In this document: positions 1,091-62,339 of the stretch, in pieces
Layout: the number at the start of each line of letters is the position of its first letter
Position numbering within the stretch: position 1 is the first letter of the stretch
Assembly (NCBI RefSeq): GCF_002300555.2
Contig: NZ_NTHN02000005.1
Span: forward strand, 62,001 to 126,000
DNA length: 64,000 nt
Origin: Alloyangia mangrovi
GTDB lineage: Bacteria; Pseudomonadota; Alphaproteobacteria; Rhodobacterales; Rhodobacteraceae
Direction: 5' to 3'
Position numbers and translations under genes: made by a program
Notes under the pieces: generated by a model
The model's input: the letters and a program-made list of their open reading frames with translations, nothing else
Database searches by the model: none
Told to the model about the DNA's origin: nothing

Positions 1091-1571
1091 GCGTCACCGT
1101 CTTTCTTAAGTTGCGCTTCCAGCTCCTCGGCCTTCTTCGCGGACTCTTCTGCGCGCTTCATCGCCGCTTCTGCCTCGCGCTTCTGGCGCTCGGCTGCGGC
1201 GCGGGCGGCACCGGCCTCGATCTTCTGCTTGTTCCCCGCCCGCTCGGCCTCGAGCGCGCCGGGATCCTCTTTCAGCCCCTCCGTTTTTTTTGGGGGGGCG
1301 TCGGGTCGGTCATCGACTTGGCGGCATCGCGCACCCCGTCCATGGCCGAGCTCACCGGGTTGGTCGCCGTCTTGAGCGTCTTGGCCACGTCGCGCACGCC
1401 CGCCTCGTCCGCCGCGTCGTTCATCGCGCGGCTGAACTCGCGCGCCATGCCGCGCGCCTTGCCCATGAAGCGACCTACATTGCGGAACAGCACCGGCAGA
1501 TCCTTGGGGCCCACGACAATGAGCGCCACGATCCCGATGACCATGAGTTCCGACCAGCCAAGATCGAACAT
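1087..1571 (-). CDS. tatB: Sec-independent translocase TatB, reading frame interrupted
   Basis: The N-terminus ([17 protein letters not shown], then VGPKDLP) is the TatB membrane helix, hinge and start of the amphipathic helix. As read, the frame stops at 1272 after 99 residues. In the -1 frame a charged, Ala/Glu/Lys-rich coiled tail typical of TatB continues to a TGA at 1087-1089 that overlaps the tatC start. The break is at a double homopolymer, G7 (1292-1298) next to T8 (1284-1291). A net +1 or -2 restores the tail; a -1 ribosomal slip on A_AAA_AAA would give 161 residues. A sequencing error is most likely, but programmed slippage cannot be excluded by eye. Confidence 0.9.
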
Positions 1572-1575
1572 GGGA

Positions 1576-1791
1576 TCAGACCTTGTCCTTCTCGCTCTCC
1601 GGGGTCACGTCCTTGGCCTCGGCAGCTTTTTCGTCCTCGAGTTCCTTGGCGCCGTCGTTCACGCCCTTCTTGAAGGCGGTGATGCCCTTGCCGACCTCGC
1701 CCATGAGGTTGGAAATCTTGCCGCGGCCGAACAGAACCAGCACCACGACGGCGATCAGAAGAAGGCCCGGAAGGCCGATGTTGTTGAGCAT
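1576..1791 (-). CDS. tatA: Twin-arginine translocase subunit TatA
   Basis: This 71-residue protein is the pore-forming or membrane-weakening subunit of the Tat system. It has one N-terminal transmembrane helix ([16 protein letters not shown]), the family FGRGKI hinge, an amphipathic helix ([17 protein letters not shown]) and a short charged tail. It is the first gene of the minus-strand tatA-tatB-tatC operon, with four bases separating its stop from the tatB start. The operon promoter should lie in 1792-1940, the region shared with the divergent regulator gene. Confidence 0.95.
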
Positions 1792-1944
1792 GTCCTTAGT
1801 CTCCCTTTGGCCGCTCCAACCCAGTGCGGGCGTCCCCGAAGCGGCACGTCGAAATCTGTTCCCGGGTTGTAGGATCCTTCCCCGCGGCGCGGAAGTCGCA
1901 AAGCCGGGGCGGGCGGGCGCCAGAGGGGGTTTTCTTTCGGCTTT

Positions 1945-1979
1945 TTGACACTATCCTGTCAGGTGACATAAATCTGTCA
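1945..1979 (+). promoter_or_regulatory. Sigma70-type promoter overlapped by two TGACA-N6-TGTCA operators
   Basis: A near-consensus promoter is visible: TTGACA at 1945-1950, a 17-base spacer, ATAAAT at 1968-1973. Two perfect 5-base inverted repeats with 6-base spacers overlay it: TGACACTATCCTGTCA (1946-1961) and TGACATAAATCTGTCA (1964-1979), 18 bases apart. The first covers the -35 box and the second the -10 box, the geometry of a repressor site. The downstream gene encodes a WYL-type regulator, so autorepression is the simplest inference. Confidence 0.75.
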
Positions 1980-59285: not shown

Positions 59286-59292
59286 GCGAGGG

Positions 59293-61565
59293 TCATCCGC
59301 CGATCAGCGCGAGCCATTCATCCTCGTCCATCAGCCGAACCCCCAGTTCCTTGGCTTTCGCCTCCTTGCTGCCCGCACCCGGGCCGGCGACGACAATGTC
59401 GGTTTTTTTCGAGACCGAGCCCGAGACCTTGGCCCCCAGCGCCTCGGCCCGCGCCTTGGCCTCGGCGCGGCTCATCTTCTCTAGCGTGCCGGTGAAGACC
59501 ACCGTAAGCCCGGCAACCGGGCTACCCTCGGTCGCCGGGCGCTCGGCGTCCTGGATGTCGAGATGCGCGACCAGCCGGTTGACCGAGGCACGCTCGGCCT
59601 CCTGGTGCAGCGAGGTGACCAGCGAGACCGCCACGATGGCACCGATGCCGTCGATGCCGACAAGGTCATCCCAGGCGGCGCGCGCCTCCTGCGGCACTTT
59701 CGGCTCTTCGGCCCAGACAGCGTCCTGCGTCTCTTTGATGCGGGCGCGGCGACCGGCGGAGGCGGCAATCTTGCGCTCTTCCTCGACGGCGGTCTCGGCC
59801 TTGCGATAGCGCTCGACCGCGGGGACCGCCTGATCGACCGCCGAGATCATCGCCTCCCAGCCAAGGTAGTGCTTCGCCAAATCCTTGGCGACCACCTCGC
59901 CGACGTGGCGCATGCCGAGCGCGAAGATCACCCGGTTGAGCTCGATCTTCCGCTTCTCGTCGATGGCGTCGAAGAGATTGGAGGCGCTCTTCTCGCCCCA
60001 GCCCTCGCGGTTCTTCAGCTGCTGCATGCCCGAGCCGTAGCGCGCCTTCAGCTCGAAGATATCCGCCGGTTCCTTGATCCAGCCGTCGCGGTAGAACTGC
60101 TCGACCTGCTTGGCACCCAGCCCCTCGATATCGAAGGCGGCGCGGGAGACGAAGTGCTTGAGCTTCTCCACCGCCTGCGCCGGGCAGACGAGCCCGCCGG
60201 TGCAGCGGCGCACGGCGTCGCCCTCCTCGCGGATCGCCTCGGAGCCGCACTCCGGGCAGGTCGCGGGAAAGACGTAGGGCTGCGCACCCTCGGGGCGTTT
60301 GCCGAGGTCGACGTCGGCCACCTTGGGGATCACGTCCCCGGCGCGGTAGACCTGCACCCAATCGCCGACGCGGATATCCTTAGCACCGCCTTCGGGATCG
60401 GGGCGGATCACCTCGCCCTTGGCGTCGCGCCCGGCGATGTAATCCTCGTTGTGCAGCGTGGCGTTCGACACGACGACGCCGCCCACGGTGACCGGGGTGA
60501 GCCGCGCCACAGGGCTGAGCGCACCGGTGCGGCCGACCTGGATGTCGATCGCCTCGAGCCGGGTCCAGGCCAGCTCGGCGGGGAATTTATGCGCGATCGC
60601 CCAGCGCGGCGTCGTCGAGCGGAACCCGAGCCGCCCCTGCAGCGCCAGATCGTTGACCTTGTACACCACGCCGTCGATGTCATAGCCGAGCGTGGCGCGC
60701 TGTTCCTCGATGCTGCGGTAATGCGCGATCATCTCGCGCGGGCCGTCGCAGAGCTGGGTCAGCGGGTTGGTCTGGAAGCCCAGCGCATGCAGCCGTTCGA
60801 TCGAGCCCATCTGCGTCTCGCCCAGCGGTGACGAGAGCTCGCCCCAGGCATAGGCGAAGAAGCGCAGCGGGCGGGCGCGGGTGATCTCGGCGTCGAGCTG
60901 GCGCAGCGAGCCGGCGGCGGCGTTGCGGGGGTTGGCGAAGAGCTTGCCGCCGCGAGCTCCTGCCGCTCGTTGAGGGCCGCAAAGTCCCCGTGGCTCATGT
61001 AGACCTCGCCGCGCACCTCGAGCACGTCGGGCGCGCCTTCGAGGCTCTGCGGGATATCGGCGATGGTGCGGGCGTTGGCGGTGACGTTCTCGCCCACCGA
61101 TCCGTCCCCTCGCGTGGCAGCCTGCACCAGCTCGCCGTTTTCATAGCGCAGCGAGAGCGAAAGGCCGTCGATCTTCGGTTCGGCGGTATAGGCGAGCCCA
61201 GCGCCGTCGGAGAGACCAAGGTAGCGGCGGATGCGCGCGTCGAACTCGTCCACCTCCTCGGGCTCGAAGGCATTGCCGAGCGAGAGCATCGAGACAGCGT
61301 GGCGGACCTTGGAAAACCCCTCTGCCAGAGGTGCCCCCACCTGTTCGCTGGGACTGTCTTCGCGCTTGAGTTCGGGAAACCGTTCCTCGATCTCGAGATT
61401 GCGGCGCTTCAGCGCGTCATAGTCGGCGTCCGAGATCTCGGGCGCGTCCTCGGTGTGGTAGGCGGTGTTGGCCTGTGCCAGCAGATCGGCGAGCCGGGCA
61501 AGCTCGTCCCGTGCCTCCGTTTCGGTCAGTGCCTCTACCGGTTTCTCCGCCACATGCTGGGCCAT
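59293..61565 (-). CDS. ligA: NAD+-dependent DNA ligase LigA, frame-broken
   Basis: The replicative ligase seals nicks using NAD+. The N-terminal part has the Ia and adenylation domains with the active lysine in [16 protein letters not shown]; the C-terminal part has the OB fold, four-cysteine zinc site (CPECGSE, later [13 protein letters not shown]), HhH repeats and a BRCT domain ([15 protein letters not shown]). The frames meet near 60950: after NERQEL the sequence should read [20 protein letters not shown] but one base (a G on the coding strand) is missing. With it the protein is 757 residues. LigA is essential, so this is most likely a sequence error. Confidence 0.95.
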
Positions 61566-61630
61566 TGCCGCATCCCTTGCTCACGCCTTTTGGCAGACGT
61601 GATAGGGCGCTCGGCGGGACACGTCCAGAG

Positions 61631-62339
61631 TCAGGCGTTCACTGCCATGGCGCCAACCGGCGGCTCGGGATCGCGCAGAACGTATCCGCGCCCCCAGACG
61701 GTCTCGATGTAGTTTTCATCCCCGGTGGCTTCCGAGAGTTTCTTGCGAAGCTTGCAGATGAAGACGTCGATGATCTTGAGCTCGGGCTCATCCATCCCCC
61801 CCGTAGAGATGGTTGAGGAACATCTCCTTGGTCAGGGTGGTGCCCTTGCGCAGCGAAAGCAGCTCGAGCATCTGGTATTCCTTGCCCGTCAGATGCACGG
61901 CGCGCTCGCCCACGGTGACGGTCTTGGCATCGAGGTTCACCGACACCTTGCCGGTGCGGATGATCGATTGCGAATGCCCCTTGGAACGGCGGATGATCGC
62001 ATGGATGCGCGCCACCAACTCGTCGCGGTGGAACGGCTTGGTCAGGTAGTCGTCGGCGCCGAAGCCGAATCCCTTGATCTTGTTCTCGGTGTCGTCGGCC
62101 CCCGAGAGAATCAGGATCGGCGTATTGATCCGCGCCATGCGCAACTGGCGAAGCACCTCGTGCCCGTGGATGTCCGGCAGATTGAGGTCCAGCAGGATCA
62201 GGTCATAGTCGTAGAGCTTCGCAAGATCGATGCCCTCTTCCCCGAGATCCGTGGCGTAGACGTTCAGGTTCGCGTGGTTCAGCATCAGCTCGATGCTCTT
62301 CGACGTGGTCGGATCGTCTTCAACCAAAAGGATGCGCAT
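61631..62339 (-). CDS. ctrA: Cell-cycle response regulator CtrA, frame-broken
   Basis: CtrA is an OmpR-type master regulator; in Rhodobacterales it governs motility, gene transfer agents and related traits. The receiver domain (residues 1-115, phosphoacceptor D51 in [13 protein letters not shown]) and start of the DNA-binding domain ([20 protein letters not shown]) are clear. At a G7 run on the coding strand (C7, 61796-61802) the frame ends in YGGDG. With six bases it reads [20 protein letters not shown] and [12 protein letters not shown] to a stop at 61631 (235 residues, normal length). The upstream neighbour is sciP. Confidence 0.95.

Follow-up and report, generated by a model that had tools for sequence, protein, structure and literature searches.

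The 64-kb window considered here, which is the whole stretch of DNA that was analysed (contig C125, bases 62001–126000), belongs to the draft assembly of Alloyangia mangrovi (5,533,102 bases in 169 contigs, 99.35% complete, 67% G+C). Several of its genes appear truncated or fused at runs of seven G or C, and the question raised is whether these frame breaks exist in the DNA of the cell. Judged from the comparison of assembled sequences rather than from reads, the frame breaks of the draft assembly are almost certainly systematic homopolymer overcalls and not changes in the cell's DNA. The protein encoded at 53228–54580 had Salipiger mangrovisoli (96%) and Alloyangia pacifica (97%) as its nearest named relatives, which pointed to a marine, Salipiger/Alloyangia-like bacterium of the Roseobacter group. 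We compared it with 12 congeneric genomes (G001–G012). By CtrA, the closest congeners were G009, G005, and G010 (98–99%), whose DNA could be aligned over most of the window, mostly at 83–94% identity.

An exact run search recovered all seven of the G7/C7 runs that the preliminary description had listed (7/7), at 1292, 14050, 24906, 34541, 47181, 53158, and 61796, together with five six-base G/C runs at 4439, 10201, 26607, 37517, and 53147; G/C runs of at least eight were absent from the window. Sequences simulated with Markov models of orders 2, 3, 4, and 5 reached seven runs of at least seven in 19, 36, 7, and 2 of 100 cases, respectively. Since low-order models often attain it, the tally of seven-base runs in the window was rejected as evidence, and to that extent the runs agree with a chance origin, by which G+C-rich DNA often contains seven-base runs and frame anomalies have been read into them. 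What does stand out is that seven-base runs are more numerous than six-base runs (7 to 5, whereas the order-2 model expects about 4 to 16), that the runs coincide with frame breaks, and that the relatives differ.

The preliminary description had placed each of the six genic runs at a frame anomaly and had proposed comparison with orthologues as a check; against syntenic relatives the extra bases were seen, and all six runs (6/6) were longer than in the orthologues by a frame-breaking number of bases. In tatB, whose product has a TatA_B_E domain, T8 is followed by G7 at 1284–1298 on the minus strand (A8/C7 on the coding strand), and the two runs combined exceeded those of G005 and G010 by two bases and those of G009 by three. 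The tatB open reading frame (ORF) encodes 99 amino acids in the window, 160 in G005 and G010, and 98 in G009. At this run, the short tatB of G009 (contig C1, about 1668301) lacks one G that G010 has; the relatives are thus imperfect references, since G009 tatB is short as well. The 3' end of a gene for a class-I glutamine amidotransferase (Peptidase_C26) contains the G7 run at 14050–14056 (minus strand), which was one base longer than in 3/3 relatives. Counted from one shared residue up to the stop, the product has 273 amino acids with a different tail, compared with 270 in G005, G009, and G010. As had been proposed, the shifted tail overlaps kynU by eight bases, and in G009 the two ORFs adjoin without overlap.

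At the four remaining genic sites, the earlier claim of one base too many was borne out. In a cytochrome P450 gene, the G7 run (24906–24912, minus strand) falls in the opening codons and exceeded by one base that of G005, G009, and G010, the three nearest relatives; compared with G006 and G012 the net difference was three bases, and the start region differs too. The G7 run in a penicillin-amidase-family acylase gene (34541–34547, plus strand) was one base longer than in 5/5 relatives, and the penicillin amidase domain match stops at residue 795, at the run. In dusB, the C7 run at 47181–47187 (minus strand) exceeded that of 7/7 relatives by one base; the deposited sequence has a fused Dus and histidine kinase ORF there (dusB-ntrB, 45794–47866), in which the Dus match stops at residue 230. 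The C7 run in ctrA (61796–61802, minus strand) was also one base longer than in 7/7 relatives. The ctrA ORF encodes 183 amino acids, compared with 235 in G009 and G010, and the match to the CtrA DNA-binding domain breaks off after 38 of its 77 positions. These extra bases, relative to every relative compared at acylase, dusB, and ctrA, support the earlier suggestion that the apparent pseudogenes and the dusB-ntrB fusion are probably artefacts.

The C7 beside A8 on the coding strand of tatB is a slippery-looking motif, as would fit programmed or tolerated slippage, in which the extra base is real and either transcriptional or ribosomal slippage restores the product or the run serves as a phase-variable switch. 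We consider this extremely improbable. The runs were not conserved: they were interrupted in relatives at acylase, ctrA, and most P450 copies, and were six bases long in some relatives at dusB and the amidotransferase gene. Interruption in many relatives argues against a conserved slippage device; moreover, the genes are unrelated and the excess of long runs extends to noncoding DNA. In the portion of the literature consulted (PMC3025981), poly-G tracts shift reading frames in phase-variable contingency loci, for example those of Campylobacter. The tracts in the study genome differ from such loci: they are short and unconserved, occur across housekeeping genes that have no relation to one another, and are biased towards a single additional base.

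The seventh run lies in an intergenic G6/C7 hairpin at 53147–53164, upstream of the ORF at 53228, and its C run at 53158 has one C more than in G010. The hairpin had been described as one that would be perfect with C6; this argument did not hold, because the stem of 8 bp is formed without interruption by the C7 sequence as well. We rejected the hairpin as evidence of overcalling, as it folds equally well with C7. The six-base runs of pntB (10201) and ccdA had been said to keep the frame, and both were in register with the relatives, with the correction that the C6 run of ccdA starts at 26607 and not at 26587. Not every long run was wrong: the T7 runs at 59403 (in ligA) and 21266 had the same length as in relatives. 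At 37415–37422, 56690–56697, and 17692–17698, intergenic-looking T8, A8, and A7 runs, respectively, were longer than in several relatives.

For overcalling, the expectations outside the window were a deficit of six-base runs with an excess of seven- and eight-base runs, errors that are insertions only, and independence of gene and base; all three were observed in the study genome and in neither control relative (G009, G010). The study-genome sample comprised 444,764 bases (C125 in full, with 200 kb from C92, 80 kb from C83, and 20 kb from C82) and was not drawn at random, and the control samples comprised 480,000 bases from each of G009 and G010. In the 445-kb sample, 21 of 25 coding G/C runs of at least seven were off frame by +1 (17 of 19 outside the window), where the coding filter counts the run at 53158, taken as intergenic, and excludes that at 14050. 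Fifteen of the 21 were off frame against both relatives and six where a single relative aligned; of the remaining four, three were ambiguous and one was consistent, namely a coding G7 run at C92:24100, judged by its one relative. By comparison, none of seven such runs was off frame in G009 (four consistent, three ambiguous), and one of four in G010, which was the tatB site (one consistent, one ambiguous, one unaligned). The difference between 21/25 in the study genome and 1/11 in the relatives was significant (Fisher P = 4e-5). Coding six-base G/C runs of the 445-kb sample were in frame in 22 of 25 cases, with one case of −1 and two ambiguous. Outside the window, the affected genes included the unrelated and conserved miaB, a ribA-type GTP cyclohydrolase II gene, and the genes for polyphosphate kinase 2 and xylulokinase; a break in trpC at an A7 run is based on one relative.

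Similar results were obtained from a three-way count of clean 1–2-base indels private to one genome, over 278 kb aligned to both G009 and G010; this count is strict and excludes the window sites at tatB, the amidotransferase gene, and P450. The study genome had 18 lineage-specific coding indels, 13 of them at runs of at least six and all 13 insertions; outside the window, 10 of 14 were at such runs. The corresponding numbers were 0/5 in G009 and 0/11 in G010 (Fisher P about 1e-5). Protein-level comparison gave 29 frame switches in 262 queries against G009 proteins and 14 in 248 queries against G010 proteins, of which 13 and 8, respectively, had a G/C run of at least seven within 75 bases, compared with 0, 0, 0, and 1 of the 9, 20, 5, and 11 switches in four control comparisons. 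We preferred the three-way count because the protein-level switches include many start-site false positives.

The implication that homopolymers account for every frame break in the window did not stand, because ligA, which the preliminary description had missed, was broken near 60957 without a run. Compared with G005, G009, and G010, one base is absent at 60947–60967 (minus strand), and this splits the gene for NAD-dependent DNA ligase into ORFs at 59293–60810 and 60759–61565; the intact LigA has 757 amino acids in G009 and G010. A second ligA was not found, and the adenylation domain was matched nowhere else in the genome, in a search confined to NAD-dependent ligase. Bacteria without another replicative ligase cannot dispense with the NAD-dependent one, and since this was the sole ligA found, its one-base loss is probably an error too, of another type. 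Of the 18 coding indels private to the study genome, five likewise lay away from runs of at least six, and three of these five were deletions. Genome-specific coding losses of one base were seen at C92:177730, in a sarcosine-oxidase-alpha-type gene, and at C92:191962, in an ORF of 339 amino acids; in at least one relative, a G+C palindrome occurs at each site (10 bp in both relatives, and 16 bp in G010, respectively). The palindromes at these two losses outside the window suggest a second, rarer error type, for example compression.

The extra bases depended strongly on run length. When coding and noncoding G/C runs were taken together and both relatives agreed, +1 was found at 3 of 291 five-base runs, 2 of 20 six-base runs, 13 of 13 seven-base runs, and 5 of 5 eight-base runs; the same count at seven-base runs was 0/4 in G009 and 0/1 in G010. 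Because choosing long runs in the study genome biases toward extra bases, the test of direction was begun from the runs of G009. At 77 six-base G/C runs of G009, the study genome was +1 in 15 and −1 in 1, and G010 was +1 in 2 and −1 in 1 of 63. Starting from the six-base runs of G010 the contrast was weaker, with the study genome longer at five and shorter at one of 49, and G009 longer at one and shorter at three of 47. Where the longest local run of the study genome at a G009 six-base run was six or seven, it was seven in 13 cases and six in 14, suggesting that roughly half of the true six-base runs are overcalled. The earlier restriction of the effect to G/C had to be abandoned: T8 in tatB and A/T runs elsewhere were lengthened as well, and among A/T runs of six to eight bases, +1 was found in 8 of 12 in the study genome, whereas the two relatives had 0/9 and 0/5, although these numbers are small.

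Over the whole study genome, exact G/C runs of six, seven, and eight bases numbered 671, 494, and 134, giving a 7:6 ratio of 0.74, compared with 0.10–0.23 in the twelve congeners. Among the 13 genomes the study genome has the fewest six-base and the most seven-base runs, and the deficit and the excess were alike in coding and noncoding DNA. The chance reading introduced above is contradicted by this ratio and by the three-way indel count, and the frame inconsistency was measured against orthologues and controls; we regard its probability as negligible. The next highest ratio, 0.23, was that of G002 (1657 six-, 374 seven-, and 107 eight-base runs), a value that could reflect the same problem in milder form or merely a genome richer in runs.

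The changes at runs are private to the study genome, and long G/C runs are genuine hot spots of slippage, so that true slippage mutations in a mutator strain or a decaying genome, with the frameshifts being real pseudogenes fixed in the sequenced culture, deserve attention. Slippage goes both ways, whereas the run changes were one-way: the 13 coding indels at runs of at least six included no deletion, and the ratio was 15 to 1 in the G009-based test. A mutator is not indicated, since MutS (879 amino acids) and MutL (821 amino acids) have open frames and full-length matches, and loss of either gene was not seen. Slippage would also need several hundred fixed breaks (by extrapolation) in unrelated genes, and the shift from six- to seven-base runs was seen in noncoding DNA as well. 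We therefore consider slippage very unlikely. If hundreds of real and recent one-base expansions at runs of at least six had nevertheless occurred with mismatch repair open, they would point to a novel insertion-biased replication or repair defect, an outcome we find scarcely credible. Homopolymer overcalling, by contrast, agrees with the extra bases against orthologues, the insertions-only pattern at runs, the dependence on length, the independence of base, and the genome-wide excess that is absent in the relatives; these observations support the earlier proposal that it is systematic.

Under overcalling, the assembly would overestimate by one base many single-base runs of at least six, and with a G+C content of 67% this would be most visible at G/C runs. 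Roughly one in two conserved six-base G/C runs would be given as seven and some seven-base runs as eight, and each genic overcall would shift the frame, so that genes look like pseudogenes, CtrA and TatB look truncated, and dusB and ntrB look fused. The cause would lie in the sequencing chemistry or the consensus caller, and a flow-based method of the pyrosequencing or semiconductor type would fit best. Nanopore and similar platforms also produce run-associated frameshifts, and early nanopore errors were mainly deletions; the study genome differs in its insertions at runs, and its 169-contig assembly seems unlike one from long reads. In the part of a GS 20 pyrosequencing study considered here, more than 97% of errors fell at runs, and insertions made up 78.8% of these (PMC1564139). 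The study genome resembles such 454 or semiconductor flow data, as far as that part of the study describes them, in having indels at runs that rise with run length and insertions in excess (PMC1564139). It differs in that its affected runs are mostly G/C in a genome of 67% G+C, whereas in that part of the study the error-bearing runs were mostly A/T (more than 95%), in A/T-rich plastids (PMC1564139).

This finding is an ordinary and useful warning about data quality, and it matters to users of the assembly as a representative of the species. With 21 coding G/C cases per 445 kb in 5.53 Mb, a few hundred genes are probably affected assembly-wide. The 7:6 ratio of G/C runs offers a cheap, read-free check, by which one genome of 13 was far out. 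Gene loss or gene fusion in this organism should not be read from the shortened CtrA and TatB, from the P450 broken at its N terminus, from the changed acylase, or from the joined dusB-ntrB ORF; most likely, the seemingly broken or fused genes are normal in the living cell.
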